Source: Candidatus Omnitrophota bacterium
Lineage (GTDB): Bacteria; Omnitrophota; Gorgyraeia; Zapsychrales; Fredricksoniimonadaceae
Length of the DNA: 55,446 bases
Assembly: GCA_013287965.1 (NCBI GenBank)
Contig: JABDCU010000010.1
Coordinates: 1 to 55,446, forward strand
Direction: 5' to 3'
The notes beneath the pieces were generated by a model. It ran no database searches, was not told the origin of the DNA, and worked only from the letters and a program-made list of their open reading frames with translations. The translations under genes and the position numbers were made by a program. The stretch's first letter is position 1. Each line of letters starts with the position of its first letter. Shown piece by piece: positions 6,101 through 52,596 of this stretch.

Positions 6101-9100
6101 ATTGGCGCCGTTAATAAGCACATTCTTGATCTGCCCTCTTGATTTGCGATTAAAAACCTCACTGGCTTCTTGTTGAGATCCCTGCAAAACTTCTAATCCA
6201 TTGGCGATCAAAGGATTATCTGTTTCAAGCGTTCCATCCACCTGATTACCCACATCATAAAAAAGATTGAGGTCAATTTGAGTTATGCCATCTTTCACTT
6301 TTACATAAACTGAATTGCTGTCAACGACAACATTGTCCTGCGGTTGAACGCTCTGTGTTTCCGACAAAGGCCTCACAGAAATATTGCCGCTCCTTAATGC
6401 CCTACGCAATGATTCCGTATCAATAGTGACCTCGCCCGGTATAACAATAGTCATCTGATGGGCAACCTTGCCGCGTTCTCCAGGAGCTAAAATAACAGAT
6501 GTTTGATCGCTTGAAGACAAACCTTCAGAGACATGGATCGAGCCAAAGCTATCTAAATATTTGACCTTTCCATCAGGCCCCACTACGGTAGTGCGTGGAG
6601 CACCTTCAGAACTGACCACCAGTGAACGGCGTACAGTCAACGCATTCTCTGCGGATGCACCTGGTAAACTGGCAATTGCTTCGAGGATAGGCGTTTCCTT
6701 TTCCTTGGCAATATCCCTGTAATGTTCAGAGAATTGCTTCATGGCTTTTTTATTGTAATTCAGCTGCTCATCACGGCTGACGCCCATGACTTTGAGGGCT
6801 TCAAACAAAGCCTTGATCTGGGTGGCAATGGGACCAACCCCGATGTTGACACGAGTATTGTCATATTGCTTAAATAATTTCCCAAACGCAATAAACTCAC
6901 TTTTGGGACGGTTAGTCTTCCAATTTGCCCCGAAATAAGGAATACGGCCATCCTTGACTCCGGCTGCTTGCAGGGCATCTAACATCGGTTTAGCTGTTGC
7001 CACATCCAAACTCTTGCCACCAACGAGAAGACCATCAATATCTTTCTGTGCCATAAAATTAGCAGCGTTATTTCCATCTGCAGCTCCGCCATAAAGAATG
7101 CGTACCTGCTGAGCAATTCTTTCGCCAATCTCTCCACCATACCATTCTTTGAAGATCGCACGAATATACTCTGCAATTTCTTGGGCTTCTTGAGGAGTCG
7201 CGGGTTCTTTGCCGATGGCCCAACGCGGTTCATATGCGATAATCAGCCGTTTCGCATTATCATTCTTAGTTAAATCTTCCTTAACAAGTGACAGTCGAGC
7301 AACGATGTCCCTGAGAATTACTTGTTTTGTCAGCCCAAGCTCTTTCTCATCCCCAGTTTCGCCTAATGCCAAAATAACATCTTTTAATCCATGATCAAAT
7401 GCCATTTTAACTTGTGGCGCGAAAATTGTTTCATTGATATTCTTTCCACCAATAACAAAATCATGGTTCTCATCCCGGATCATGCCAAATTTTCTGGTCA
7501 ATTCTAAAAGCGTTTCCGAATGTGAAATGATGACACCTGTCATTCCTTGGCGGATCATGTCCTGAATAGGAAGGGTGCCTGTGCCTTGATTTTCGATTTC
7601 AGTAATATTATCGCCGAACTGACCCAAAACATTCACATCACTCGCCTTCATCGCCAGATCATGTGAAGCTGGGCCTGTACGACCACCAACTGTCAAATTC
7701 CCAGAAGCCGAACGTATTGTGCCTTGTACTCTGCCTATGCTGCTATCTAATTCGTCCCGTTCATCTTGATTCAAATGCCCTATTTTTTCTGTTAAGCTGT
7801 CTAAATCGTCCATAAGTTCGCGGTATTGTATGTTTTTGGATGCAGCACTTTCGCTGGAGGGAATATTTGTAAATTCTGTTTCTATACGCTTTATTTCTAC
7901 GCGTGCATCTTCAGCCGTCATCGCCCGGCTTCCAGCGCTTGCCCTAAATGCCTTTGATCCTCGGAGAGTTTGAAAAAGAGCATCTACTTTTGTAACTAAA
8001 CCAGTCTTCAAAATATTTAAATCTCCAGCTTCTTTCCATGTTTGATCTATGGTCACTGCTTGGACATTGCCCAATAGGGTTTGCACGAGACCCTTTTTAG
8101 TCACATCAGCCCCTACTAAGCCCTCGTATCGTCTGTTCAAATTTGTTAATTGACTACGCACATCCTCAGGTTTTGCCGCCATTGCGGAGCTGGCCTCCGG
8201 GGTTCCTTGGATTGCTTGAAGATTTACCAAAACGTTGACATCATTGCGACTGCTCAACATCGCTGGAGTAATAACACCATTCTTTCTAATTCCGTTCGGT
8301 TCGGCATAAGCTTCGAACTCTGTCCCGCCCGAGAAATACTTTCTGGGCACGGTTTGATTTGTCAAAGGATCAATGTCTTCCTTAATATAGTTGTAAACAC
8401 CTTTCTTGAAGGCCTTCAGGTATTGATTGTAGATTTCCATCTTGGTGTTTTTGTCCTGGACATCAACACCCGCCACCTTGTTCTGGTTGGCGTACAATTG
8501 GCCCAACAAAGACTGCTTTAAATTCATCTTATACCACGTGGCCAAAACAACGGCATTGGCGATCTGGCGCAATTGGGCAAAGTTTTTACCTGTATTGATT
8601 TCTTTTTCCAACTCGGGCAAGACTGTTTCGCGAATGATTTGGGAACCAAGAGTGCTCGTAGAAGCCGCAGGAACGGCAGCATTGTTCATGTGTTTCTGTA
8701 AAGACAAATAATCCTGCTCCAGCATGACCTTCAATTTATTTTCCGTTATAAAGGCAGTGCCGTTATGTTCATAGATAGTCGCGTGATCTGGGACGATCCA
8801 GACCTTATTAAAGGTATTGACCGGCACATTGGTGGTGCCGAATTGCTCCTGCGCTTTTTTGTAGACCTTGGCCCAAAATGTCTTGCCTAAACTGCCTTCG
8901 GGATAGATCATGGAAGCTGTCAATTGCTTGAGGACATAATCCTGGGCCAGCATGTCACGGCCCATTTCAGTTTGGCCAAGGCCATTGGCAATGATACGGT
9001 CTTTTTCATAGGGAGAAAGGTTGACCCACAATTCTTTTTCCGGGACAGTCAAAGCCGCCAGGAAATATTTGATCATTTGGGAAGATTCCGCCCTTAATTC

Positions 9101-9343
9101 TTCACCTTGGACATGCGCGTCACCGGTATCAACGATAAAATTAAATTGTAAAGGGTTTTTGGGGTCAATTTGAAGCCCGCGAACGATCGCGGGTGTAAAC
9201 GCGGGACTGGTGGACAACATGGTCCCGGGAGCAGGAAGATTTAAAAATGTGTCTGAGGAGTTTAGCGCGAAACTAAGATTAGGCAACCCTAAGTTAAAGA
9301 CAAAACACACCAGGACAAAAGAAACTTGGATTCTTTTAATCAT
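1..9343 (-). CDS. Giant exported multi-enzyme glycolytic polyprotein, C-terminus beyond the left edge
   Basis: One frame stays open from the ATG at 9343 to the window edge, at least 3,114 codons. A GGAG ribosome site lies upstream. Residues 1-27 form a signal peptide (K/R, hydrophobic core, SFA cleavage site). Order after that: Omnitrophota-type N-terminal module (about 45-380), linkers, circularly permuted triosephosphate isomerase (about 548-862), GAPDH (about 1072-1528), degenerate class II aldolase-like segment (about 1568-1792), DhnA-type class I fructose-bisphosphate aldolase (about 2118-2428), enolase (about 2495-2972), then a Gly-rich module at the edge. I checked that the landmark motifs TIM AYEPRWAIG, GAPDH WYDNEW, aldolase DQATEHS and enolase SHRSGETED all share this frame. 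Phosphoglycerate kinase and mutase domains are not seen. Export is inferred from the signal peptide; activity and proteolytic processing are unknown. An assembly artefact is unlikely given the unbroken frame and the recurring linkers. Confidence 0.9.
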   Translation of the reverse strand, partial: MIKRIQVSFVLVCFVFNLGLPNLSFALNSSDTFLNLPAPGTMLSTSPAFTPAIVRGLQIDPKNPLQFNFIVDTGDAHVQGEELRAESSQMIKYFLAALTVPEKELWVNLSPYEKDRIIANGLGQTEMGRDMLAQDYVLKQLTASMIYPEGSLGKTFWAKVYKKAQEQFGTTNVPVNTFNKVWIVPDHATIYEHNGTAFITENKLKVMLEQDYLSLQKHMNNAAVPAASTSTLGSQIIRETVLPELEKEINTGKNFAQLRQIANAVVLATWYKMNLKQSLLGQLYANQNKVAGVDVQDKNTKMEIYNQYLKAFKKGVYNYIKEDIDPLTNQTVPRKYFSGGTEFEAYAEPNGIRKNGVITPAMLSSRNDVNVLVNLQAIQGTPEASSAMAAKPEDVRSQLTNLNRRYEGLVGADVTKKGLVQTLLGNVQAVTIDQTWKEAGDLNILKTGLVTKVDALFQTLRGSKAFRASAGSRAMTAEDARVEIKRIETEFTNIPSSESAASKNIQYRELMDDLDSLTEKIGHLNQDERDELDSSIGRVQGTIRSASGNLTVGGRTGPASHDLAMKASDVNVLGQFGDNITEIENQGTGTLPIQDMIRQGMTGVIISHSETLLELTRKFGMIRDENHDFVIGGKNINETIFAPQVKMAFDHGLKDVILALGETGDEKELGLTKQVILRDIVARLSLVKEDLTKNDNAKRLIIAYEPRWAIGKEPATPQEAQEIAEYIRAIFKEWYGGEIGERIAQQVRILYGGAADGNNAANFMAQKDIDGLLVGGKSLDVATAKPMLDALQAAGVKDGRIPYFGANWKTNRPKSEFIAFGKLFKQYDNTRVNIGVGPIATQIKALFEALKVMGVSRDEQLNYNKKAMKQFSEHYRDIAKEKETPILEAIASLPGASAENALTVRRSLVVSSEGAPRTTVVGPDGKVKYLDSFGSIHVSEGLSSSDQTSVILAPGERGKVAHQMTIVIPGEVTIDTESLRRALRSGNISVRPLSETQSVQPQDNVVVDSNSVYVKVKDGITQIDLNLFYDVGNQVDGTLETDNPLIANGLEVLQGSQQEASEVFNRKSRGQIKNVLINGANGRIGTKLLQQWLLAGPESNVNIVLANGVSSIQGLIKMINGDSVHGTFLVAGRDKVNIGSDNGVEYIKITYKGKMYNKIYRLNDRSDYSKLPLGAFDVEIAVDAIVNGETYDNLMKYIEAGAIRVIHTSPSKKGIDGKKAFALVFGLSEDDFKGQDVCQSTSCTSVNVSTSESALMREGGPEGRRQRDLNNQRLEMLGQAAELNNDMKTETMHLRTVHAATNSDSTVDNKRASAIANMGRLETTGASRALVELNEDLKDVVMSADSLRYVGANMSLSEVTKVVTIEQGQNLTADQVKDQVKKLFVDASKSPRFKRVFRVIEGGFDSKQLQGSQASATILLDSIEVVKVKGKNDKFMIHYKSWYDNEWGFTARIWDIILSTAEDMERNLPQSDSVEDLLTQIDDFNSKYESDIISYNTSGGAIKIEAVNHRNALVAQYGLMDYLRREAAFNPNKDVRREALGIVQQVGHLLGVQSASRQVADYLKKDHNVSDKLVPFNPGSGSGSRYAALLKIYETARDTGIVPQININEPNRRKDVQQKQLAVDTLVNPKEEAETPKVEDLEPGFVEATVADVYAAAIAAGWTGPVFLNLNNVSVNPDFFTPQGESEGKDWQEGKIENPFKAAVKDVKARILQAAKAGVYNYQIDLTPLLAYGAKNARGGKTQDAFIYEAAVELTTFIRALENEINFRSAPLSVSFTVEGNLISEELKKDINNELRESKLALPTYIGDINALKEKSDSLFAQDPRAVMFAVLNQVVEAAKDKDNVDAIDLRNDMINFMEGLVYKNKMASRLTKDLIAQAALRAAGQRFNRHRRTLLKAREMGLKQSGSLDQIHDMILTRQRIEGLNEKEQITLEELVEYTYRAFYHAISHLRVSEGADKVDALFAEEAQKLADANKDKQGKAREEVRKAVNAPFMRDPRKTIQPTEGRTLSDKYQDYHVSVAGKVTQYAEPELTTPAIMDLQLDKNGNMVTGEEIPGVYARENTLTTAIRTHSRLAGRDAMPVRSLQRGAADARSVASDRRGAVQTTGTTIQDSKIEQMMQWAFAGKSERFKANLERLYRYGVLGGTRRLVILPIDQATEHSPSRSHEIYTPMANKDNQVELAYRLGLSGYAALAGTIEMIAPRWSRKIPLIAKVNMSSGVGGNPKASQHSALIGNVEQLAKAGVAAIGYTIYPGSLEFNEQMNELRQVIDEANKYDLPVITWSYPRGGERLAKSEYETAFDVSIAAANMALEAGAAIVKVKPPANVIMDEKEEKELIKKYQGKVGSDKFMRVQLDMPSRIEKMKQLGAWGGVRDLIFSGGPAKSTEDVLKEIADVAFGGGNGAIVGRNMFQRQVDEAVDLGNKILALEIAGAWKEDGIVSFNTVDEMMEYAFRDNRPGDILYDIKADFQRRNPDWDDFKARLAGDAAQLANKAMVGLDNIVGKETFDSRGNPTVEVTGEVKPKGSEIFKIIRARVPSGASTGKHEAWELRDGDKSYYNGKGVFNAIRNINEVILPALKAANIDILDDDVLKKVDDLMNALDGTPNKSRLGANAILGVSMLITRAAAEARGISLEEFLNQEINRRHKLNQQMSIPVPMMNFINGGAHVGGVDKPDVQEYMVQPVGAKSIEEALANAEKVFKKLGEIAQREYGIDPADPKAYGNEKGYALPLKSNEEGLELLKRAIIEAGFTPGKDFTYALDVASTEFYKDGVYTFEKQGRTSQQMIQTYAQWKEKYPELMSIEDGLAEDDWESWADLTKAEGNHLQLVGDDLFVTNVPRLRRGIAEKSANAVLIKVNQIGTISETLDAIAEAIQNGYGVIISHRSGETEDDFISHLAVGTGAGQIKTGGLAAWDAIAAGTVLSFPSGRPTGNERKTKYVALKDIEKESNGTIPYAALLKATVGDRPLFRASAAMTADEIRRKIDDIKRIMGMYSEVERKSLIYKGLLSDLEGLKGQADQDLLDKVKSGFEAEIGILENRIRIEMVGSSVVLSERGFDISHKDSAMRAKRDGGINFDPSMYSIQIRRDGNGIPLPVDQQPIARINVRGFRGIIMS
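340..440 (-). repeat. Polyprotein linker repeat 3
   Basis: FRASAAMTADEIRRKIDDI follows the enolase domain directly and leads into the C-terminal module. It matches linker 2 at FRASA, AMTA and the following Arg/Lys-rich helix. Linker recurrence argues that the domains were joined by a regular modular process. Confidence 0.6.
430..1861 (-). other. Enolase domain, apparently complete
   Basis: Residues about 2495-2972 run from the N-terminal cap (FDSRGNPTVEV) through MNFINGGAHV, ALDVASTEFYK, SIEDGLAEDDW, GDDLFVTN, the catalytic-lysine segment LIKVNQIGT (Lys2855) and SHRSGETED (His2883). At about 478 residues it is slightly longer than free-standing enolases (about 430). All substrate and Mg2+ residues I can recognise are retained, so this is the best candidate for an active domain in the chain. 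Confidence 0.88.
2060..2990 (-). other. DhnA/FbaB-type class I fructose-bisphosphate aldolase domain
   Basis: The segment aligns by eye with E. coli FbaB along its length: LVILPIDQATEHS (Asp2156; FbaB has LSILPVDQGVEHS), IGYTIYPGS, VITWSYPRGG, AAIVKVKPP with Lys2320 as the likely Schiff-base lysine, DLIFSGGPA as phosphate-binding loop, and GAIVGRNMFQR near the end. It is therefore a lysine-dependent aldolase, needing no metal. It would supply the dihydroxyacetone phosphate and glyceraldehyde 3-phosphate used by the TIM and GAPDH domains of the same chain. Confidence 0.8.
3970..4640 (-). other. Degenerate class II fructose-bisphosphate aldolase-like segment
   Basis: Residues about 1568-1792 contain VADVYAAAIAAGWTGPVFL and, later, AGVYNYQIDLTPL and AAVELTTFIRALE. 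These resemble a class II aldolase family in which the first motif is followed by a zinc-ligand His (GPVFIQGDH-like) and the second reads YNIDIDTS. Here the expected His region reads LNLNNVS, so the metal site appears lost. The match is from memory and weak in places; a non-catalytic spacer of different origin is the alternative. Confidence 0.4.
4760..6130 (-). other. Glyceraldehyde-3-phosphate dehydrogenase domain
   Basis: The domain starts with a Rossmann motif NGANGRIG (near residue 1072). It continues with the catalytic-cysteine segment STSCTSVN (Cys1243), the histidine segment TVHAATN (His1298), a TTGAS stretch corresponding to the usual STGAAKAV, and the C-terminal signature WYDNEW (Trp1442). 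Cys-to-His spacing is 55 residues instead of about 27, caused by a roughly 28-residue Gln/Arg-rich insertion. Whether Cys1243 occupies the active-site position therefore needs a structural model. Confidence 0.8.
6760..7700 (-). other. Triosephosphate isomerase domain, circularly permuted
   Basis: All three catalytic elements are present but in rotated order. The electrophile His608 is in ISHSE, the catalytic base Glu705 is in AYEPRWAIG, and the N-terminal strand carrying Lys809 (FGANWKTN) comes last, after the strand-8 phosphate loop LLVGGKSL. In ordinary TIM the NWK lysine strand is first (K13-H95-E167). Here barrel strands 3-8 come first and strands 1-2 (to about residue 840) follow. No second NWK motif lies upstream of the His segment. 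I re-translated the His608 and Lys809 segments codon by codon. The fold should close, because TIM-barrel ends are adjacent; activity is inferred. Confidence 0.85.
7850..7965 (-). repeat. Polyprotein linker repeat 2
   Basis: The peptide starts FRASAGSRAMTAEDARVEI and continues as a charged helix. It precedes the permuted TIM domain. It is clearly similar to linker 3 after enolase (FRASAAMTADEIRRKIDDI), so the same spacer bounds different enzyme domains. Confidence 0.6.
8090..8205 (-). repeat. Polyprotein linker repeat 1
   Basis: The peptide ASSAMAAKPEDVRSQLTNL begins near residue 385, at the boundary between the N-terminal module and the next segment. It shares the pattern [R/S]AS-x-AM-x-A-x-x-[D/E]-x-R followed by a basic helix with linkers 2 and 3. 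Confidence 0.5.
8200..9210 (-). other. Omnitrophota-type N-terminal module of the polyprotein
   Basis: Residues about 45-380 begin with TMLSTSPAFTPAIV, followed by FNFIVDTGD, LWVNLSPYEKDRI, GQTEMGRDMLAQDYVL and VNTFNKVWIVPD. No enzyme motif is visible. From memory, this block heads many very large secreted proteins in Omnitrophota genomes, where it is annotated as hypothetical. Its position directly after the signal peptide suggests a targeting or anchoring role, which is inference. Confidence 0.6.
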
Positions 9344-9394
9344 GACAATCTCCGGAGGTTGAGTTGAGAAAACGATTCCTAATAGCGATAAGAA

Positions 9395-9422
9395 AGGATA
9401 ACATATTTTTTGGGCATGTCAA
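9395..9422 (-). promoter_or_regulatory. Candidate sigma70 promoter of the polyprotein
   Basis: On the minus strand a perfect TTGACA (9422-9417) is separated by 16 bases from TATCCT (9400-9395), about 50 bases upstream of the ATG at 9343. The rest of the 150-base gap to the helicase gene is AT-rich, and no clear terminator is seen. Confidence 0.5.
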
Positions 9423-9491
9423 GTTTTTGGACGCGTTGTAAAGCTAATATTATTAATATGTTACGTTTTTATTAAAAAATTGTTTGGAAAT

Positions 9492-10961
9492 TCAGAATAA
9501 TTTCATCTGCAGGGCATCTGGATCTGCTTTGGGGATGTGGCGCCTGGAAGCTTCGTAGGCTTTTAATTCTTCGGCAATATCTGCCATATATAGGGAAGGC
9601 TCCTGTATCAACGTTTGGCCGAATAATTGGCGGCGCTTGGCATGGGTCAGGTATAAATGTTCCTTGGCGCGGGTCATACCTACATAAAACAAACGACGTT
9701 CTTCTTGGGGATCGCCTTTCATGCCTATTAAATCCAGCGGCAACAAATTATTCTCACATCCAATGATAAAAACCACAGGGAACTCCAGGCCCTTGGCCGC
9801 GTGCAAGCTCATCAAAGAGACTTTCTCAACGTTGTGCTCCAGCACTTCTTCGTTTTGGCCTAAAGCATCTTCATCTGAATAAACTTCCTCTCTTTTGACT
9901 TTTTGAGAAACCTGATACGGGATGCCTAGATGTTCCAAGGCCTGCCCCATCACATGACGCTGAGCGTTAAGCCGGTATAAAATGACGATATCCCCCAGAC
10001 TTCGCACAGCGCGGCGGCTCGTGTTCATATCCAAACCGCCGATCAACTTTTCAATTTGATGCGCTACATAATCAGCCTCTGCACGGTCGGTGGCAGCCTG
10101 GTGGATGATCAATTTGCCTTCCCCATGCATTCGGGCAATTAATTCAATATGGATCCCCGCTTTCGTGTTCTTTGTGATGACTTGGCTGCTGGCAGACAGT
10201 AAATTTGCCATCGAACGATAATTTTCCTGCAGGGTTAGTGTCTGCGCCGGGGCAAAATCTTCCTCAAAGCGTCGAAATAATTCCACTCGGCTGCCACGAA
10301 AGCCATAGATAGATTGATTAGCATCCCCAATGGCCGTCAATAAAACACCCTCGCGGGCCAGGATTTTAAGCAAAGAATTCTGTACGATATTGCTGTCCTG
10401 GTATTCATCCACAAAAATATAACGGTATTGGCCTCGCAGTTGGCCGGCAATATTTTCATCTTCCAAAAGCAACAAGGCCTCGCGCAAAATATCATCAAAA
10501 TCAATCCAGCTGTTTTGGCGCAGATAACGCTGATACGCCTTGTAATCGTCGTCGGAAGAAACAGCTAACTGGGATTTCATGCGGGATATGCGCTCGAGTG
10601 TGGCTTTGTCAAAGCCCGTGATGTCCTCTGGAAGGGCTACCTTAAAATCTTTGGGCAAGGCCGTATGCTCAAAATGGTCCCGTAATAATTTCAGACAAAA
10701 AGCATGAAAGGTCCCTACGAATACCTGTGATTGACGAACGCCTAAAGCTGTCAACCTGTCCAGCATTTGACGGGCAGCCTTATTGGTAAAAGTGATCGCC
10801 AATATCTTCTCATTAGGTTTTAACGAAGGAATTAAGTGCGCTATGCGACGGGTGAGCGTATGCGTCTTGCCCGTGCCCGGGCCTGCGGTGATCAATAAAT
10901 GCGTGTCCTGTTGGCACACCGCCTGCCATTGGGATCCGTTTAAATCATCAGGTCGCTGCAT
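9492..10961 (-). CDS. Compact UvrD/PcrA/Rep-type ATP-dependent DNA helicase
   Basis: Superfamily 1A 3'-5' helicase motifs occur in order: Walker A AGPGTGKTHTLTRR, Ia AITFTNKAARQM, Walker B VDEYQDSN, motif III region AIGDANQSIYGFRG, motif IV LQENYRS, motif V SLMSLHAAKGLEFPVVF and motif VI RLFYVGMTRAKEHLYL. The protein is 489 residues, against roughly 650-750 for UvrD, PcrA and Rep. The shortfall falls between motifs IV and V, where subdomain 2B normally sits, so the autoregulatory 2B domain looks reduced. The ATG at 10961 has only a weak ribosome site. The role in repair or replication restart cannot be settled from sequence. Confidence 0.9.
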   Translation of the reverse strand: MQRPDDLNGSQWQAVCQQDTHLLITAGPGTGKTHTLTRRIAHLIPSLKPNEKILAITFTNKAARQMLDRLTALGVRQSQVFVGTFHAFCLKLLRDHFEHTALPKDFKVALPEDITGFDKATLERISRMKSQLAVSSDDDYKAYQRYLRQNSWIDFDDILREALLLLEDENIAGQLRGQYRYIFVDEYQDSNIVQNSLLKILAREGVLLTAIGDANQSIYGFRGSRVELFRRFEEDFAPAQTLTLQENYRSMANLLSASSQVITKNTKAGIHIELIARMHGEGKLIIHQAATDRAEADYVAHQIEKLIGGLDMNTSRRAVRSLGDIVILYRLNAQRHVMGQALEHLGIPYQVSQKVKREEVYSDEDALGQNEEVLEHNVEKVSLMSLHAAKGLEFPVVFIIGCENNLLPLDLIGMKGDPQEERRLFYVGMTRAKEHLYLTHAKRRQLFGQTLIQEPSLYMADIAEELKAYEASRRHIPKADPDALQMKLF

Positions 10962-11003: not shown

Positions 11004-11573
11004 CTAGAAGGACACCGCAGCGCTCAAAAACAGCATGTCCGTGCTGTTGGTAATATCGCCGCCGACGTTTCTGGGAATATAACTTAAGTAATAGGTGACC
11101 GAATGTTTGCCGTAGTCATGGCCAATGCCGATATTCACATAAGGTGTCGCAGACAGCTTATAACGCTTATTATCCGTATCATTGCCATAGGTCAAAGCAC
11201 CCATCAGATTGGTCTCAAAAAAAGTATTTTTCTTGAAATATTTCCTATAGCGTCCTCCGGCAGCGACGAAAGTATAGGGATGGTTGTCACAATTTTCAAA
11301 CATTCCCCCGTGTACGGTCACTGAAAATCCATTGGTTTGCCTGTCATCCCGAAAATCATAACCCAGGCCCAGGCCGGGATTGAACACCACATAACCGGTT
11401 TCATCTAATTTTAAAGGAGCATGATGAACAGCGCCCCTTTTGTGCAAATGATAGGTAAGGCCGAACATGTCCACGTCAACTTCGCCGGCAAAACAGGGGG
11501 ATAAAAAGAAAATAAAGACCAATAAGAGGCAGGAGACCGACAGGATATTGACTTTCGATAACTGGCTATCCAT
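11004..11573 (-). CDS. Small outer-membrane beta-barrel protein, exported
   Basis: The 189-residue product has a hydrophobic signal sequence ending SPCFAGEV (cleavage near residue 29). It then alternates aromatic and polar residues (FGLTYHL, GLGLGYDF, FSVTVHGG, YVNIGIGHDYG, VTYYLSYIP) and ends in Phe, as expected for a BamA-inserted barrel of about eight strands. The strand pattern and YLSYIP segment recall PagP/PagL-type lipid A enzymes, but I cannot find a convincing catalytic set, so function stays unknown. It has its own promoter about 80 bases upstream. Confidence 0.6.
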   Translation of the reverse strand: MDSQLSKVNILSVSCLLLVFIFFLSPCFAGEVDVDMFGLTYHLHKRGAVHHAPLKLDETGYVVFNPGLGLGYDFRDDRQTNGFSVTVHGGMFENCDNHPYTFVAAGGRYRKYFKKNTFFETNLMGALTYGNDTDNKRYKLSATPYVNIGIGHDYGKHSVTYYLSYIPRNVGGDITNSTDMLFLSAAVSF

Positions 11574-11649
11574 ATTTCAGGACCCTTTAGTTTTGCGTCC
11601 CCACCTTACGATGGGTTTGCCTTTTCGTATTCAAACTGCTTCTACTCTA

Positions 11650-22419: not shown

Positions 22420-23766
22420 TCATTTAAGCCAGGCTGCGACGGTCTGCCAGAGTAAATACGCGTTCAAGGCAACGATCACTGCTGTCACTGCCCATGAGAG
22501 CACTGTTAGCCACGCGGCATTGACAAAGTTTCCCATCTTCTTCTTGTCCGATGTGAACAACACCAGTGGGACCACCGCGAAACCTAATTGAAGTGATAAA
22601 ACAACTTGGCTAAAGATCAGCAATTGTCCTGTTCCCTTCTCTCCATACATCGAGGCAACAATGGCTGCGGGGACGATCGCTATCAACCGGGTTATCAGGC
22701 GCCTGACCCATGGACGCAGGCGGATATTCAAAAACCCCTCCATCACGATCTGGCCTGCCAATGTCCCTGTCAGCGTTGAATTCTGGCCCGACGCTAAAAG
22801 TGCGATCGCGAATACAACGCTCGCCATAGAGACCCCTAAAACCGGCGATAATAATTTATACGCATCCTGAATGTCCGCTACGTCCTGGTGACCGGTACCA
22901 TGGAACGCCGCGGCGCTTAAGATCAAGATCGCGGCATTGATAAAAAACGCGGCAAATAAAGCGGTTGCTGAGTCGATGCCCGCAAAATGCACCGCCATTT
23001 TCTTGCCCTCCTCATTGCGTTCATACGCACGGGTCTGGACAATGCTCGAATGCAGATATAAATTATGCGGCATCACCGTGGCCCCTAAGATCCCAATGGC
23101 GATATATAACATGTCAGGATCAGTGACGATCTCGGGTTTGGGCAATAAATTCGCCAGGAACAACGGCAATGAAGGGTTTGAGATCATCATCTCATAGGCA
23201 AAACTCCCGCCGATCAATAATATCAATCCCGCCACCAGGGATTCGATGACTCGAAACCCCTTATACTGCAAAAATAAAATAACAATGACGTCAAGTGAGG
23301 TTAGGATGATCCCTATAATAAGAGGAAGATGGAAAAGCAAATTCAAGGCAATGGCAGACCCGATCACTTCAGCCAGATCACACGCTGCGATGGCTATCTC
23401 ACAGCCCACCCATAGCATGAAAGATACCGGTTTACTGTAATGGTCACGGCAGGCCTGGGCCAGATCGCGCTCAGTGACAATGCCGAGTTTCAAAGACAAG
23501 TGCTGCAATAAGATCGCGATGAAATTTGAAATTAAGATGACGGACAATAAAATGTAGCCAAACTTGGCACCACCGGCCAAGTCCGTTGCCCAGTTGCCAG
23601 GGTCCATATACCCGACGGCAACCATAAGCCCGGGGCCGATGAAGGCCAGCATCTTACGGCCCCAAGAGGCCTGAGAAGGCACAAGGACGGTCGAATTGAC
23701 TTCCTGCAAACTAAGTGTTTTATTCTCCTGCCGCCAAGCTGGTTTCATATCGTAAAACTGTATCAT
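22420..23766 (-). CDS. mntH: NRAMP-family Mn2+/Fe2+ transporter
   Basis: About eleven hydrophobic segments. The canonical metal site is intact: DPGNWATD in helix 1 and MPHNLYLHSS in helix 6. It therefore imports Mn2+ or Fe2+ with protons across the inner membrane. The N-terminal start is uncertain: TTG 23784, ATG 23766 (AGG close by) and ATG 23748 are all in frame, and none has a good ribosome site. It contrasts with the second NRAMP-like gene at 49404, whose metal site is altered. Confidence 0.9.
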   Translation of the reverse strand: MIQFYDMKPAWRQENKTLSLQEVNSTVLVPSQASWGRKMLAFIGPGLMVAVGYMDPGNWATDLAGGAKFGYILLSVILISNFIAILLQHLSLKLGIVTERDLAQACRDHYSKPVSFMLWVGCEIAIAACDLAEVIGSAIALNLLFHLPLIIGIILTSLDVIVILFLQYKGFRVIESLVAGLILLIGGSFAYEMMISNPSLPLFLANLLPKPEIVTDPDMLYIAIGILGATVMPHNLYLHSSIVQTRAYERNEEGKKMAVHFAGIDSATALFAAFFINAAILILSAAAFHGTGHQDVADIQDAYKLLSPVLGVSMASVVFAIALLASGQNSTLTGTLAGQIVMEGFLNIRLRPWVRRLITRLIAIVPAAIVASMYGEKGTGQLLIFSQVVLSLQLGFAVVPLVLFTSDKKKMGNFVNAAWLTVLSWAVTAVIVALNAYLLWQTVAAWLK

Positions 23767-23861
23767 CCTGAAAGTAAAAGTCAAGGACTGATGCGGACTG
23801 CTACGAGGAAGGTTGCGCGCAGGATATATCCCCTATTGCTTGCTCGGCAGACGTCAAATAA

Positions 23862-24866
23862 TTATGAGGACGGTTGAGAGCATGATTCACGAACAATAAG
23901 ATCGGGGGCAAGTACTTTGTGGACGACACCGATTTGTTTGTCCATCATGATGTCATAAATGACCTTGACCGCTTCTTCCCCCATGGCAAACAAAGGCTGT
24001 TTGATGGTCGTCAAGGCCACAGGGCCGAAAAGCCCCGCAGGGTTATCGTCAAAACCGATGATGGAAATATCTTCCGGCACCTTGATGCCGTTTTCCATGG
24101 CCACGGAAATGATCTCAAGGGCCATGTCGTCGCTGGCCGCGAAGACGGCAGTCGGAGGGTGTTCCAAAGAAAAAAAACGTTCCGCGGCCTGACGGGCCGA
24201 CCGGCGGGAATAATCCCCTTTAAAACAAAAATCCGGCTGGCAATCAATGCCGTGCTGCTTTAAAGCTTTCTGGAAACCTTCGAACCGGTCGATACCTGCC
24301 TGGGTCTGCATATTACCGGTGACGGTGGCGATGCGTTTATGGCCCAGATTGATCAAATATTCCGTGGCTGTAAACCCGCCTTTGACATTATCCACCGCGA
24401 TATAACTGACATCCAGGTCTTTAACGATATGGTTGATGACCAGACAAGGGGTATTTTCGTGTACCGCGGTCTCCACTTGGGGCAGGTTCTCGATGATGTC
24501 CGCGAAAATAAGGCCGCCGGCAAAATTGGACCTTAACGGATTACGTCCATCGGTAATATGAAAGATCAAGTCCAGCCTCAGCGTTTCACAGCCATGGCCG
24601 ATGCCGCGCATCAACTCCACCGCGTAGAAAGAGTGAAAGATGCCCGGATAACCCGGGATGACAAAACCGACGGCGGTGTTCTGTGTTCCTTTGGCCAAGC
24701 GCTGGGCGGTGGGGTTAGGCCTGAATTTGAGCTCAGCAATGACCTGATCTACGCGTTGGGCAATTTCTTTATTGACCGTGGGGACTTTGTTAAGGACTCG
24801 CGAAACGGTGGTGATGGAGACGTTTGCTCTGCGGGCGACATCTGTTATGCTTATTTTCTTTTCCAC
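23862..24866 (-). CDS. LacI-family transcriptional regulator
   Basis: Residues 5-28 form the classic LacI helix-turn-helix (ITDVARRANVSITTVSRVLN), with the hinge RPNPTAQRLAKG and a periplasmic-binding-protein-like effector domain (VGFVIPGYPGIFHSFY, GHKRIATVTGN, AVFAASDDMALEI, ISIIGFDDNPAGL). The effector is probably a sugar. It lies upstream of, and on the same strand as, the carbohydrate genes at 26-38 kb only in the broad sense, with other genes between. No palindromic operator could be picked out by eye. Confidence 0.92.
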   Translation of the reverse strand: MEKKISITDVARRANVSITTVSRVLNKVPTVNKEIAQRVDQVIAELKFRPNPTAQRLAKGTQNTAVGFVIPGYPGIFHSFYAVELMRGIGHGCETLRLDLIFHITDGRNPLRSNFAGGLIFADIIENLPQVETAVHENTPCLVINHIVKDLDVSYIAVDNVKGGFTATEYLINLGHKRIATVTGNMQTQAGIDRFEGFQKALKQHGIDCQPDFCFKGDYSRRSARQAAERFFSLEHPPTAVFAASDDMALEIISVAMENGIKVPEDISIIGFDDNPAGLFGPVALTTIKQPLFAMGEEAVKVIYDIMMDKQIGVVHKVLAPDLIVRESCSQPSS

Positions 24867-47152: not shown

Positions 47153-48340
47153 CTAATACGTGGGATCGACGTAGGTGTATAATTCTCCGGCGAAATTGCG
47201 CAGCGTATAACGGCCATTTTCTTTGGAAACCAGATAATCCGGGCTGATGGGGATCTTTCCACCGCCGCCGGGCCCGTCGATCACATAGGTCGGCACCGCG
47301 TAGCCGGTGGTATGCCCGCGCAGGTTCTGGATGATATTGATCCCTGTCTCGACTGTGGTGCGGAAATGCCTGGAACCGACGATGGGATCACATTGGTAGA
47401 TGTAATAGGGCCTGACACGGATCTTTAAAAGCTCGTGAAAAAGTTTCTTCATCACTTCAGGGGAATCATTGACACCACGCAAAAGCACTGTCTGGCTGCC
47501 CATGGGAATGCCGGCATCCGCGATCATGTTGCAGGCATGCTTGACGCGCGGGGTCACTTCCTTGGCATGGTTAAAATGGACACTCATCCAAAGGGGTGAA
47601 TATTTCTTGAACATGGCAATGAGCTCCGGCGTGATGCGCTGGGGCAGGGTCACCGGAATACGGGTGCCGATGCGCACAAATTCCACATGCGGGATGGCTT
47701 TAACAGAAGAAATTAAATACTCCAGCATACGGTCCCCTAAGGTCAAAGGGTCCCCGCCGGAGATCAGGACGTCGCGGATCTCCTTATGCTCACGGATATA
47801 ATTGAGCGCCGCGTCATAGGTGGAAGTATTCAACGTATGATTGCCATCGCCAACCATGCGTGAACGCGTGCAATAACGGCAGTACATGGCGCACATTTCA
47901 TTGACCAAAAAAAGCACGCGGTCCGGATAACGGTGCACCAGTCCATGCACCGCGGAATTCTTGTCTTCCCCGCAAGGGTCAAGCATTTCTTCCGGGGTGG
48001 TCTCAAATTCATGATCCAAAGGGACTGATTGCAAACGGATAGGGCATCCGGGATCATTTTCATCGATCAGGGCGGCAAAATACGGCGGGATGGACATGGT
48101 CAATTTATCCCCTGCCCCTTTGACCCCGCGCTCTTCGTGAGGGGTCAATTTCATCAGCTTGGTGATCTGATCAAGTGTACGGATGCGGTTACGGATCTGC
48201 CAGCGCCAATCTTCCCAATCAGCTAAAGTTGCCCCCGGAAATAATTTAATAACGCGTTGTTCCGCAGGGGACAAAGGAATATTAGGTCCGTTGGAAGATG
48301 GAACTGTCTCTTCTTTGATTGCTGTGGTCACAGGGCTCAT
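47153..48340 (-). CDS. kamA: L-lysine 2,3-aminomutase
   Basis: Radical-SAM, PLP enzyme turning L-lysine into L-beta-lysine. Cluster cysteines C150, C154 and C157 are in CAMYCRYC. The PLP lysine Lys362 is in GGGGKIPI. The residues that recognise the lysine side-chain amine in KamA, Asp of YQCD (Asp318) and Asp of YVIDGPGG (Asp355), are both kept, which favours lysine over glutamate as substrate. It is 395 residues. Its start overlaps the ATP-grasp gene by 4 bases, so the two are translationally coupled. Confidence 0.92.
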   Translation of the reverse strand: MSPVTTAIKEETVPSSNGPNIPLSPAEQRVIKLFPGATLADWEDWRWQIRNRIRTLDQITKLMKLTPHEERGVKGAGDKLTMSIPPYFAALIDENDPGCPIRLQSVPLDHEFETTPEEMLDPCGEDKNSAVHGLVHRYPDRVLFLVNEMCAMYCRYCTRSRMVGDGNHTLNTSTYDAALNYIREHKEIRDVLISGGDPLTLGDRMLEYLISSVKAIPHVEFVRIGTRIPVTLPQRITPELIAMFKKYSPLWMSVHFNHAKEVTPRVKHACNMIADAGIPMGSQTVLLRGVNDSPEVMKKLFHELLKIRVRPYYIYQCDPIVGSRHFRTTVETGINIIQNLRGHTTGYAVPTYVIDGPGGGGKIPISPDYLVSKENGRYTLRNFAGELYTYVDPTY

Positions 48341-49356
48341 TTTTTGTAGGCTTCCTCTTGTGTAAGCCCTAAACGTGCCAGGGCTTCATCCATGATCTTG
48401 TTGATGATCTGATTATACGTCATCCCTTTGACTTTCGCAAAAAGAACGAACACATCGTCAGGACTTAAATTCGGTAACGGGTTAATTTCCAGGACATACG
48501 GGTTTCCCGCCTCATCCACGCGAAAATCCACACGCCCGAAATCACGGCAATCTACCGCCTTGTAAGCACGCACCGCCAACTCCTGCAATCGGCGTGCCAG
48601 TTTCTCATCAATGGGTGCCGGACAAATATATTCTACCGATTTTTCAACCACATGGCGATAAGAATAAAATTCATTGCCCAAGGTGGTCGAACCCGCTATC
48701 GCGTATTGGACAACAGGCATGGCTTGCGGCGGACCATTCCCGATAATACCCACGGTAAACTCAGTGCCTTTAATGAATTCCTCAACTAAGGCCGGTTGTT
48801 TGTAATTGCGATTGACGTGCTCCACCTGTGTTTTAAGCTGTTGAAAATTCTCCACCCGCGAACTTTGGTTGATCCCTTTGGATGTCCCCTCGTGCAGGGT
48901 CTTGACGAACAAAGGAAAACCAATGGTATTGAGTTCAAATAAATTATCTTCCGGGGTCGCTTTGAAATAACGCGCCGTGGGAATGCCATCCGCGATAAAA
49001 CATTTTTTAGCCATCACCTTATCCAGGGTGACGCCTAAGGTCAGCGCGTCAGCGCCGACAAAAGGGACATTGTATAAGTCCAAAATAGCAGGAACTTGAG
49101 ACTCGCGGTTACGGCCTTTAAAGCCCTCTGAAATATTAAAGACAATGTCCACCTTCAAGTCATTATTGGTCACGCGGCCGATCAGTTGACGGGCGCCGCC
49201 GATCAGGTCAACCTTATGTCCGGCTGACTCCAAAGCATTCTTAAGGCATTCGATCGTCTTATGCCCGTCGAGCTCAGCCGCCGCGTCGATCGGATCATCA
49301 CCAGACCCCTGCCAATCGGTCTTTAAATCGTATGTAATCCCTATTATTTTACCCAT
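48337..49356 (-). CDS. ATP-grasp ligase of the D-Ala-D-Ala ligase family, coupled to kamA
   Basis: The 339-residue protein has FNISEGFKGRNRESQVPA, VGADALTLGVTLDKVMAKK, FPLFVKTLHEGTSKGI, ALVEEFIKGTEFTVG and DFGRVDFRVDEAGNPYVLEINPLPNL, i.e. ATP-grasp and Mg2+-binding residues of Ddl-type ligases. The usual dipeptide-specific loop differs (ALTLGVTLDK), so it need not be a cell-wall ligase. As the gene is coupled to lysine 2,3-aminomutase it may couple beta-lysine to another carboxylate. That substrate is inference. Confidence 0.85.
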   Translation of the reverse strand: MGKIIGITYDLKTDWQGSGDDPIDAAAELDGHKTIECLKNALESAGHKVDLIGGARQLIGRVTNNDLKVDIVFNISEGFKGRNRESQVPAILDLYNVPFVGADALTLGVTLDKVMAKKCFIADGIPTARYFKATPEDNLFELNTIGFPLFVKTLHEGTSKGINQSSRVENFQQLKTQVEHVNRNYKQPALVEEFIKGTEFTVGIIGNGPPQAMPVVQYAIAGSTTLGNEFYSYRHVVEKSVEYICPAPIDEKLARRLQELAVRAYKAVDCRDFGRVDFRVDEAGNPYVLEINPLPNLSPDDVFVLFAKVKGMTYNQIINKIMDEALARLGLTQEEAYKK

Positions 49357-49403: not shown

Positions 49404-50672
49404 TTAATGGGCTTTAAAGAGGTCCAGGGCGGGAAGGACGAGCAGCAAAAGCGTAAGGGCAATTAAAATGACAGTGGTGGACCATCCGACGGCGTTTTGG
49501 AATTTATTATTAACATGTTCTCCCATGATCTCGGGATTATTGACCATCAATTGCATCGAGATCAGGACCACCGGCAAGAGCATGGCATTGATGTCCTGGG
49601 TCCATAAGGTGATGGCGATCAAAGGCGCATTAGGTATCAAAATGATGACGCAGGCGATGATCATGATGGCCGCAAATAACGTGTAAAATTGGGGCGCCTC
49701 ATCAACACGCTTATCTATACCCGCGTTAAAACCAAAGGCCTCACAAATATAAAAAGAAGTGGCCAAGGGCAATATGGTCGCGGAAAAGATGGAGGCCACA
49801 AAAAGCCCAAAGGCAAAAACCCCGGAGGCAAAGGCCCCGGCAAAGGGCTTGAGCGCCAGGGCCGCGTCCTTGGCTTCATTGATCACCACATTATTCACAT
49901 GCAAGGTGGCGGCACAGGCGACCATGATAAACACGGCCACGGCCACCGTTGCCACACATCCGATGACCACATCCGCCAGGGCAAGTTTATAGTCCTCCAT
50001 GGTAGTACCCTTTTCAATGACCGCGGACTGCATATAAAACTGCATCCAGGGGGCAATGGTCGTACCGACGATGCCCAGCACCACGATCAAATAATCCCTG
50101 TCATACTGGATCTGCGGATGGATGAACGCGCGGGCCACCTGGTGCCAATCCGGTTTGGCAGCGATCGCGGAAACCACATAGGACAAAAGGCAGACGCTAA
50201 ACAACAGAAAGATCCGCTCGGAGATCTTATAATTGCCCTTGGTCACCAATATCCAAACAGCCCCCGCGGTCAGCGGCACGGAGATGTATTTGCTGATGCC
50301 AAAAATATTCATGCTGCCCGCTACCCCTGCAAATTCCGTGGCGGTGTTCCCGATGTCCGCTATAAGCAGGCCTAAAAATATCCAGAATGTGATCTTGACG
50401 CCGAAATTTTCCCGGATCAGGTCTGCCAGGCCCTTGCCGGTGCAAGCCCCCATCCTCATGTTCATTTCCTGCACCACCAACAAAGCAACGAATGACGGCA
50501 AAAGTGTCCAGATGATAGGATAACCGTAGGTGGCCGCAGCGACCGAATAGGTGGTGATGCCGCCTGCATCATTATCCACACTTCCGGTGATAATGCCGGG
50601 GCCCAACATCGCCAGGAAGACCAGGATATTCTTTAAAACACTGTTCTCTTTGATCTTCTGCCAAAGGCTCAT
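49404..50672 (-). CDS. NRAMP-related transporter with altered metal site (candidate Mg2+ transporter)
   Basis: The 422-residue inner-membrane protein has about eleven helices. The helix-1 metal motif DPGN is replaced by DNDA (Asp33, SVDNDAGG) and the helix-6 MPHN by APWM (TTIAPWMQFYMQ). Loss of the soft Met ligand is typical of NRAMP-related carriers that do not select for transition metals, such as Mg2+ transporters. The gene is coupled (4-base ATGA overlap) to an MgtE-N/CBS protein, which supports Mg2+. Substrate is inference. Confidence 0.8.
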   Translation of the reverse strand: MSLWQKIKENSVLKNILVFLAMLGPGIITGSVDNDAGGITTYSVAAATYGYPIIWTLLPSFVALLVVQEMNMRMGACTGKGLADLIRENFGVKITFWIFLGLLIADIGNTATEFAGVAGSMNIFGISKYISVPLTAGAVWILVTKGNYKISERIFLLFSVCLLSYVVSAIAAKPDWHQVARAFIHPQIQYDRDYLIVVLGIVGTTIAPWMQFYMQSAVIEKGTTMEDYKLALADVVIGCVATVAVAVFIMVACAATLHVNNVVINEAKDAALALKPFAGAFASGVFAFGLFVASIFSATILPLATSFYICEAFGFNAGIDKRVDEAPQFYTLFAAIMIIACVIILIPNAPLIAITLWTQDINAMLLPVVLISMQLMVNNPEIMGEHVNNKFQNAVGWSTTVILIALTLLLLVLPALDLFKAH

Positions 50673-51925
50673 AGCTTCTCTTTGTATTTATGCCACACCA
50701 GCGAGATCAGGACTTCCAAAACGTCGTCGATGGTGATGATGCCCTGCAAAATGTCCTGGGCGTTGAGCACGGGAATGGAAGAAGATTTGTGGCGTTCCAA
50801 AAGCAGGGCGACCTGTTCAACGCTGTCATCCGTATACACATGGACATTTTCCGGATAACAGGTGTCGAGCAAAAGCGTCCGGGGATCTTCATTGAAAAAA
50901 CGCCGCAGGGAAGTCGTGCCCAGGTATTTGTGGTTGTCATCAACGACATAAAGAAAAAAAATGGTCCCTGGGAAATTGATATTTTCTTTGATCTTATTAA
51001 ACGCGTCAGCCACCGTGGCGCCGGTTTTCATGTAAAGATATTCCGTTGTCATCAGCCCGCCGGCGGAATCTTTGGCAAAACTTAAAAGTTTACGGAGCTT
51101 TTTATTGGTTTCCGATCCCAGGAGCCCCATCAGGAAATGCGTCTTCTCGCGGGGCAATTTCATCAGCAAGTCAGTCGCCTCATCCGCCGGGATATTGGTG
51201 ATCAGATTGGCCACCTCATGCTCCGTTAGCTGGCCGATAAGCTCCTCTTTATAAGCCAAGGTCATGTCCGTAAAGACTTTATTCTGCAAAACAGCGTCCA
51301 TGGATTTAAACACCGATACCCGGGCAAAAATATCCAGGTCCTGGATAATGTCTGCCAAAGCTGCCGGAGGGATTTGGCCCAAGGCATTTTTGGAAACCTC
51401 CAGTTTGAGCAGGCTTTTCATGCGCCCTAATTTAGGTAAAATTTGGGTGGCTTTCCAATGGATCAATTCGTCATGGGTCCAGCGATCGGTCATGCCTCCC
51501 CATCCCAAGCGCCGAAAAATGGCCCGCAGCCCCACATCCACGTGGGCGGCATAAAGCTGGTTTTCCACGCGCAGCAATTGGATATCATTGACCCGCACGA
51601 CACGCTGGTCATCGATATCCACCACCTGCTGGTCAAAAATGTCGCGGCGCAGGCTAAAATCACATTTAGGGACCTCTTTGGAATATTTGATCTGCTCACG
51701 GGAGATCTTAAGACGGATCTCTTCTTCGATGTAAATAATATCTTCCCAGCTAATTTTTGTATATTCCCGGGGATATGACCCCCGCCGCAGGACCAACTCG
51801 TTAGCTTTGGGGTAATTATCCGAGTCAGGGTCCATGCCGATATCGTGCAAACGGCCGACCCATTGTCCTTTAGCGTCCAGGATGTCTAAACCAATGGCCT
51901 GTGAAAAATAGAGGAATAATTTCAT
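50669..51925 (-). CDS. MgtE-N and CBS-domain regulator without the MgtE channel domain
   Basis: From the ATG at 51925 the 418-residue protein starts with a PRC-barrel-like segment (MKLFLYFSQAIGLDILDAKG), then an MgtE-N superhelix with repeated PAALADIIQDLD, TEHEVANLITNIPADEATDLLMKLP-type motifs, and CBS domains (TTEYLYMKTGATVADAFN, SIPVLNAQDILQGIITIDDVLEVL). MgtE proteins normally continue into a five-helix channel; here that domain is absent and an NRAMP-related transporter gene follows instead. A longer in-frame start at 52009 would overlap nth and is rejected. It is likely the Mg2+ sensor of that transporter. Confidence 0.85.
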   Translation of the reverse strand: MKLFLYFSQAIGLDILDAKGQWVGRLHDIGMDPDSDNYPKANELVLRRGSYPREYTKISWEDIIYIEEEIRLKISREQIKYSKEVPKCDFSLRRDIFDQQVVDIDDQRVVRVNDIQLLRVENQLYAAHVDVGLRAIFRRLGWGGMTDRWTHDELIHWKATQILPKLGRMKSLLKLEVSKNALGQIPPAALADIIQDLDIFARVSVFKSMDAVLQNKVFTDMTLAYKEELIGQLTEHEVANLITNIPADEATDLLMKLPREKTHFLMGLLGSETNKKLRKLLSFAKDSAGGLMTTEYLYMKTGATVADAFNKIKENINFPGTIFFLYVVDDNHKYLGTTSLRRFFNEDPRTLLLDTCYPENVHVYTDDSVEQVALLLERHKSSSIPVLNAQDILQGIITIDDVLEVLISLVWHKYKEKL

Positions 51926-51927
51926 TG

Positions 51928-52596
51928 TTAGCGGCTGATGCCGACCTTGACACGTTGACAGATATTTTCCACCGGACAAGTTGTACAGAGCGGTGAAATG
52001 GGTTTGCAAACATTCTGCCCCCAGGTCACCAGCAGGGCATTATATTCGATCCAATATTGCCGGGGCAATTTTTTTCTTAAAGCAAACTCCGTCTCATCAG
52101 GGGTCCTGGTTTTGATATACCCCAGGCGATTGGAAATGCGATGCACATGGGTATCAACACATATCCCCTGCTTGCCGAAACCTTCGGTCAAGACCAAATT
52201 CGCGGTTTTACGCCCCACGCCTTTAAGCGTTAAAAGCGATTCCAGGTCATCCGGCACTTTTGCCCCGAAGCGATCGATCAAGTCCCCGCAAATATCATGG
52301 ATGCGCAGGGCCTTGGTTTTATAAAAGCCCACCGGGTAGATCAATTTTTGAATTTCACCGACGGGCATCTTGAGCATTCCCTGCATCGTGTCCGCACGGG
52401 CGAAAAGACGTTCGCAGGCCGGCAAGGTGGTTTCATCGCGGGTGCGCAGGCTGAGCAAACAGGAAATAAGCACCAGAAAAGGGCTTTTGAATTTCTTGCC
52501 GACCAGGGTCACCGAAGGATCGGGCAGATCGCGCATGGCGACCTTTAAAAGCCGGATCACCTGTGCGATCTGATCGTTATTTAAAAGACCTCTCAT
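51928..52596 (-). CDS. nth: Endonuclease III (Nth-type DNA glycosylase/AP lyase)
   Basis: Helix-hairpin-helix LTLKGVGRKTANLVL with the catalytic Lys, VDTHVHR with the catalytic Asp, and a C-terminal 4Fe-4S cluster C-x6-C-x2-C-x5-C (CKPISPLCTTCPVENIC). It is 222 residues. It removes oxidised pyrimidines. Its start overlaps the era stop by 4 bases (ATGA), so the pair is translationally coupled. Confidence 0.96.
   Translation of the reverse strand: MRGLLNNDQIAQVIRLLKVAMRDLPDPSVTLVGKKFKSPFLVLISCLLSLRTRDETTLPACERLFARADTMQGMLKMPVGEIQKLIYPVGFYKTKALRIHDICGDLIDRFGAKVPDDLESLLTLKGVGRKTANLVLTEGFGKQGICVDTHVHRISNRLGYIKTRTPDETEFALRKKLPRQYWIEYNALLVTWGQNVCKPISPLCTTCPVENICQRVKVGISR

Follow-up and report, generated by a model that had tools for sequence, protein, structure and literature searches.

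Background

The pairing of NRAMP-related magnesium transporters (NRMTs) with fragments of the magnesium channel MgtE has been known since 2014. In the consulted sections of Shin et al. 2014 (PLoS Genet, PMC4072509), a gene for the MgtE cytoplasmic domain is reported beside most NrmT genes, and feedback gating by the MgtE-like fragment is offered as a speculation. Clostridium NRMTs rescued Mg2+ uptake without the partner. The Acidobacterium NRMT rescued Mn2+ uptake better than Mg2+ uptake and carried mainly Mn2+, Mg2+ rescue was no better when the Acidobacterium MgtE-like protein was co-expressed, no M-box accompanied this pair, and the authors suggested Mn2+ sensing for it. Those sections do not settle what the MgtE-like partner does, and no later test of it was found in the literature searched, outside which most subscription papers lie.

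Among characterised carriers, EleNRMT of Eggerthella lenta (PDB 7qia) transports Mg2+ and Mn2+ uncoupled from H+ according to the consulted sections of PMC8806188, from which the DxxG-TxxA/T signature and the loss of the helix-6b His are also taken as NRMT criteria. EleNRMT was studied alone, and a partner is not mentioned in those sections; the NRMT analysed here has an adjacent sensor gene. In MgtE, as given in the consulted part of PMC5882242, Mg2+ pulls the N and CBS parts together and the plug helix is fixed, and mutation of the Mg4 or Mg6 ligands abolishes closure. ATP is bound at the CBS domain of Thermus MgtE, according to the part of the literature consulted.

In this study, a sensor–nrmT pair of a Candidatus Omnitrophota bacterium was investigated in the window, that is, the whole stretch of 55,446 nucleotides that was analysed. 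An earlier note on this DNA had inferred that an MgtE sensor serves a different transporter fold; this core inference is not new, because Shin et al. 2014 had already speculated along these lines in the sections consulted (PMC4072509). Our analysis adds the location of the pair in the mgtE slot, the repeated exchange of the importer under a resident sensor and the pattern of retained ligands. These three points were not found in print within the literature consulted; slot sharing with mgtE and nrmT exchange are likewise not found in the consulted sections of PMC4072509.

Methods

The phylum sample comprised 237 Omnitrophota genomes, of which 57 gave matches in the NRMT search and 53 held a member of the NRMT group. 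For the flank test, the 1-kb stretches bordering each of the 53 pairs were compared by tblastx with the 1-kb stretches on either side of 30 full-length mgtE genes from the phylum, and a match was counted at E up to 1e-10 on the same side and at a similar distance. Two of the 106 pair flanks were too short, and 104 were scored. MgtE ligand assignments follow the consulted part of PMC5882242.

Results

Gene pair and flanking genes

The pair and its two immediate neighbours lie on the reverse strand. The sensor gene occupies 50669–51925 (-) and encodes a stand-alone protein of 418 aa counted from the ATG, as recognised from Pfam and two models (m1fc3b58dd764 and m00b8cb83723e). It is followed at 49404–50672 (-) by nrmT, which encodes an NRAMP-related magnesium transporter of type A with 422 aa, assigned from Pfam Nramp, the 7qia match and its motifs. 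Sequence and ORF coordinates place the sensor stop and the nrmT start in a 4-bp overlap at 50669–50672 (-), exactly as the earlier note had read it. Upstream, an nth-like (endonuclease III) gene (51928–52596 (-); Pfam HhH-GPD, 6.5e-24) ends 2 bp before the sensor gene and itself overlaps era by 4 bp. Downstream, 47 bp beyond nrmT, lies a D-Ala-D-Ala-ligase-like ATP-grasp gene (48337–49356 (-); Pfam, 1.1e-38). These two genes form the left and the right edge of the slot, respectively.

The locus resembles the NrmT operons with MgtE-like fragments in the consulted part of PMC4072509 in both gene families, in the proposed role and in the M-box of the Bacillota relatives; as in the Acidobacterium pair described there, the fragment gene is adjacent to and upstream of nrmT. 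The C. acetobutylicum fragment is encoded by two genes in the same source, whereas in the window a single gene encodes it, preceded by tandem PRC barrels, and an M-box, which only some such operons carry, was not found.

Transporter and metal site

The product of 49404–50672 (-) matched Pfam Nramp at E 3.8e-88, and its best solved relative was EleNRMT (E 1.1e-103), compared with 1.1e-24 for the best MntH structure. The metal-binding Asp55 of EleNRMT aligns with D35 of the window protein, and the segment replacing DPGN is therefore D35-A-G-G38; the DNDA read in its place by the earlier note covers residues 33–36 and is two residues out of register. The same note had correctly aligned APWM with MPHN, which is A207-P-W-M here. 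The window protein thus carries the full DxxG-TxxA/T signature (D35AGG38 and T204TIA207). It shares further features with EleNRMT in the 7qia alignment: E113 matches the helix 3 Glu133, W209 stands for the first His of helix alpha6b, and His, the proton-path criterion, is also absent from the stretch after W209. Judged by these sequence features, the protein is an NRMT, a member of the Nramp family nearer to NRMT than to MntH. It belongs to a carrier family, and the word channel used for it previously has to be replaced. By analogy with the characterised EleNRMT, it would be expected to transport Mg2+.

By identity to the window protein, the NRMTs of the phylum were divided into type A (n = 13, 71–100%), type B (n = 34, 48–54%) and type C (n = 6, 32–36%). 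The Asp motif was retained in 46 of 47 type A and B proteins and in all five that cover it among the six of type C. The metal-binding Asp is lost (GNNSAG) in one long-branched NRMT (G219, L073, 3820–5103 (+)), whose sensor is intact and whose genome has CorA.

Sensor domains

Pfam identified PRC (2.3e-5), MgtE_N (3.1e-16) and CBS (4.1e-14) domains in the sensor, and the MgtE channel domain (PF01769) matched neither the sensor nor the NRMT, which bears out the earlier description of an MgtE-N/CBS protein without a channel. That description had missed about 165 N-terminal residues, which fold as two PRC barrels. The chain runs from the tandem PRC barrel (residues 1–165) through MgtE_N (186–286) to the CBS pair (about 288–407). 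The predicted structure had a pLDDT of 87.2 and a pTM of 0.46, and the placement of its domains is uncertain because of the latter value. It matched the MgtE cytosolic domains (2oux/2yvy) with Z of about 20 over about 230 residues, at an rmsd of 11.7–11.9 that reflects a domain shift. AcuB, DarB, IMPDH and others were rejected as kin of the CBS part, being ordinary CBS fold matches, and FliG matches were set aside as helical-repeat similarity.

The PRC region (51428–51925 (-)) is strongly conserved and is proposed as the dock on the basis of conservation, the model and its fold match. Residues 1–166 modelled alone reached a pLDDT of 94.4, with 8qzo_B (CdpB) as the best fold match (Z 12.1, rmsd 3.8, 132 residues, 15% identity). 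CdpB1 and CdpB2, which we take to be a scaffold pair of archaeal cell-division proteins, likewise have two PRC barrels in a row; unlike the sensor, CdpB has neither MgtE_N nor CBS. Pfam PRC was found in 52 of 60 sensors at E 0.01. Fourteen positions were invariant across the 60 sensors, including nine in the PRC half (G24, D98, Q100, R111, N113, D114, D130, R138 and R139).

Retained and lost Mg2+ ligands

Like the cytosolic domain of MgtE (2yvy, 2zy9, 2oux and 8gpv), the sensor has an MgtE_N superhelix, a CBS pair and the Mg4 and Mg6 ligands; unlike MgtE, it lacks the transmembrane domain and the Mg2, Mg3, Mg5 and Mg7 ligands and has a tandem PRC barrel in front. D91, D95 and D247 of Thermus MgtE correspond to D248, D252 and D401 of the window sensor. 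The ligands of Mg4 (D91 and D247) and Mg6 (D95) are Asp in all 47 type A and B sensors, including that of the window, and per residue D91, D95 and D247 are Asp in 69, 73 and 72 of the 73 sensors at the named loci, which are the best 80 of at least 583 relatives. All six type C sensors have Gly for D91.

The Mg7 ligand E59 is replaced by Lys or Arg in 39 of the 47 type A and B sensors and the Mg5 ligand D226 in 42, both being K in the window, where D250 (Mg5) corresponds to E404. The plug-helix ligands of Mg2 and Mg3, E258 and D259, are H412 and K413 by manual count along the alignment. Of the 51 positions that are acidic in MgtE, just 7 are still acidic in 95% of the type A and B sensors, among them D91, D92, D95 and D247. 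The C-terminus of the sensor falls about where the MgtE plug helix would be; with Mg5 and Mg7 lost as well, MgtE's own signal relay cannot work unchanged, and because the chain ends there, the sensor would have to act by contact.

Linkage of sensor and transporter

The earlier note had asked for conservation of the pair, and this was found throughout the phylum sample: the sensor ORF adjoins the NRMT gene on the same strand in all 53 NRMT genomes, upstream in types A and B and downstream in all six type C loci. None of the 162 genomes with a sensor-like match lacked both NRMT and MgtE. Among the named loci (the best 80 of at least 583 relatives), the sensor gene was present at 73, the linkage extended to other phyla, and the nearest relatives included those of Candidatus Omnitrophota (L082, L083 and L088). 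Four of the other seven lie at contig ends (L091, L111, L147 and L156), and three are truly without a sensor (L146, L149 and L150). No sensor–NRMT fusion was detected among the open frames of the phylum sample and the named loci (best 80 of at least 583).

An M-box Mg2+ riboswitch was detected at 11 of 13 Bacillota loci among the best 80 of at least 583 relatives, ahead of the sensor at ten and ahead of a lone NRMT at one. None was detected in the window or in the 20 scanned of 52 Omnitrophota pair loci. The lone arrangement is seen at L149, with an M-box at 4615–4781 (+), an NRMT at 4992–6257 and no sensor gene nearby. One Bacteroidales contig (L105) carries two convergent sensor–NRMT pairs at 3634–6230 (+) and 6926–9519 (-). 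Three plasmid records matched the NRMT group; those of Serratia and Citrobacter plasmids (CP068396.1 and NZ_LR881935.1) did so with 35% identity.

A chromosomal slot shared with mgtE

At the same chromosomal slot, some genomes carry the pair and others mgtE. Both flanks matched one and the same mgtE locus in 28 of 53 pairs and at least one side matched in 37, leaving 16 without a match (six of type C, all six of family f6, and G167, G170, G176 and G227). Pair flanks matched mgtE flanks on the correct side in 67 of 104 cases and on the wrong side in six. The window nth is 65–67% identical to the gene preceding mgtE in three genomes (G136, G196 and G218), and the window ATP-grasp gene is 54–57% identical to the gene following it in two of these (G136 and G218). 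In G232, the genes on either side of the pair are ones that border mgtE in relatives, and a 42-codon remnant of the mgtE 3' end with 74–81% identity (L041, about 2597–2722 (-)) lies about 0.25 kb downstream of the pair, separated from it by a truncated gene.

Full-length mgtE was present in 4 of the 53 pair genomes versus 113 of the 184 others (Fisher p 3.9e-13, without correction for kinship). CorA showed no clear depletion (16 of 53 versus 77 of 184, p 0.15), and 34 of the 53 pair genomes had neither MgtE nor CorA. Neither gene was detected in the genome to which the window belongs, whose completeness is 70%.

Transporter exchange and sensor ancestry

NRMT alone has been repeatedly exchanged between two types of about 52% identity under conserved sensors. 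In the trees, the sensors follow family codes and the NRMTs split into A, B and C, with one change of NRMT type on the NRMT tree and nine on the sensor tree. Forcing the type A sensors together was rejected (AU p 2.6e-122), on quick trees and for a group named after viewing them. In sister A versus B comparisons (n = 8), the sensors were 64–82% identical and the NRMTs 51–56%; in same-type controls (n = 15), these values were 63–92% and 78–92%, respectively, both sets having been picked by hand from the trees. Of nine A/B comparisons, four had flanking genes that aligned on both sides (G000, the window's own genome, with G071 and with G121; G116/G131; G155/G114), and in five the alignment was limited to one side. 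Old coexistence of A and B with differential loss is a less likely cause of the mixed pattern, because none of the 47 A/B genomes holds both, even though types differ within a genus (G023/G007, G116/G131 and G155/G114).

A different sensor, which groups with Ignavibacteriae relatives, is found in 5 of 13 type A genomes and at the named locus L082, and type A NRMTs also fall beside Ignavibacteriae relatives in the tree. These groupings hint at the origin of type A.

Derivation of the sensor from a resident MgtE through loss of the channel was rejected. In a tree of the shared part, the 31 MgtEs compared cluster together, separate from all 126 sensors (FastTree support 90); the sensors are thus a separate lineage and were not given up by the local MgtE. 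The proposal that the sensor moved to another fold fits the comparative tests, and fails where it is read as the sensor of the local MgtE.

Discussion

On balance, the pair is probably a two-chain Mg2+ importer, made up of an NRMT and an Mg2+-responsive sensor, that replaces the channel MgtE. The NRMT would import hydrated Mg2+, and probably Mn2+ as well, by way of a widened NRAMP site and uncoupled from protons. The sensor would dock on it from the cytosol, most likely through the tandem PRC barrels. When cytosolic Mg2+ is high, ions between MgtE_N and CBS (D248, D252 and D401) would clamp both parts together, and the clamped sensor would hold the NRMT in a non-transporting state, from which low Mg2+ would release it. 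The whole unit would take the place of the channel MgtE in the shared slot. Docking, the direction of regulation and Mg2+ as the sensed ion are what we infer from these comparisons. In favour of this explanation stand the EleNRMT-like metal site, the constant linkage of sensor and NRMT, the slot shared with mgtE together with the scarcity of mgtE in pair genomes, the M-box at Bacillota loci and the retained Mg4 and Mg6 ligands. The rescue results in the consulted part of Shin et al. 2014, the loss of the Mg5, Mg7 and plug-helix ligands and the type C Gly for D91 count against this explanation, as do the missing M-box in the window and the scanned Omnitrophota loci and the absence of fusions.

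The sensor may also be a portable Mg2+-responsive regulatory subunit, which we consider somewhat less likely than not: it would stay while NRMT types of about 52% identity swap, and at the shared slot the unit would stand in for MgtE. In that case, the MgtE N/CBS clamp would be a general regulator that operates with fewer Mg2+ sites and is docked by PRC barrels on a carrier whose fold has no relation to that of the MgtE channel, and A/B exchange may go along with a switch in Mg2+ versus Mn2+ preference.

Other explanations deserve weight. The pair might chiefly import Mn2+ or divalent ions in general, with a sensor responding to Mn2+ or nucleotides. The Acidobacterium member, identical in gene order, points that way, having rescued Mn2+ and hardly Mg2+ and having been suggested by its authors to sense Mn2+ (PMC4072509, sections consulted), as do the Mn2+ transport of EleNRMT (PMC8806188, sections consulted) and, for nucleotides, the ATP bound by Thermus MgtE. 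We nevertheless regard this as unlikely, given that the window NRMT is 62–70% identical to ten Bacillota proteins whose genes follow an Mg2+ riboswitch and a sensor (among the best 80 of at least 583 relatives), that the slot taken by the pair is occupied by mgtE in related genomes and that the window's genome also encodes a canonical MntH-type NRAMP. A slightly better case can be made for a sensor that serves as a PRC scaffold in assembly, stability or localisation and does no gating, its old MgtE residues being structural only: the PRC half holds most of the invariant positions, its best fold match is the presumed cell-division scaffold pair, and of the seven Mg2+ sites of MgtE, five are missing or changed. 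The partner was also dispensable in the rescue assays (PMC4072509, sections consulted). This too seems rather unlikely, since the N/CBS clamp residues are among the few acidic ones still conserved. It is highly improbable that the two genes adjoin each other by chance or share only an operon and have no joint function; they do lie in a tight run behind era and nth, but the 53/53 linkage, kept in six type C loci despite the reversed order and in other phyla, already refutes this reading as far as gene linkage can.

For the two-chain Mg2+ importer, slot sharing and the retention of the clamp ligands lead to a sharp prediction on the role of the sensor: changing its three Asp residues to Ala should abolish Mg2+ control of the carrier. 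A relative of the carrier predicted to be controlled has already been purified and assayed, and the natural A/B transporter swaps under one sensor offer ready-made combinations for locating the docking surface.

Other features of the window

A second NRAMP gene of the window (22420–23784 (-)) is canonical, with both DPGN and MPHN, and is preceded by a gene (23862–24866) that presumably encodes a LacI-type regulator. A third NRAMP of the genome (G000:C1:27486–28625 (-)) is 28% identical to the NRMT. At 47153–49356 (-), the ATP-grasp gene and a lysine-2,3-aminomutase-like radical SAM gene overlap by 4 bp. A c-di-GMP-I riboswitch was detected at 11554–11631 (-) with 63 bits.
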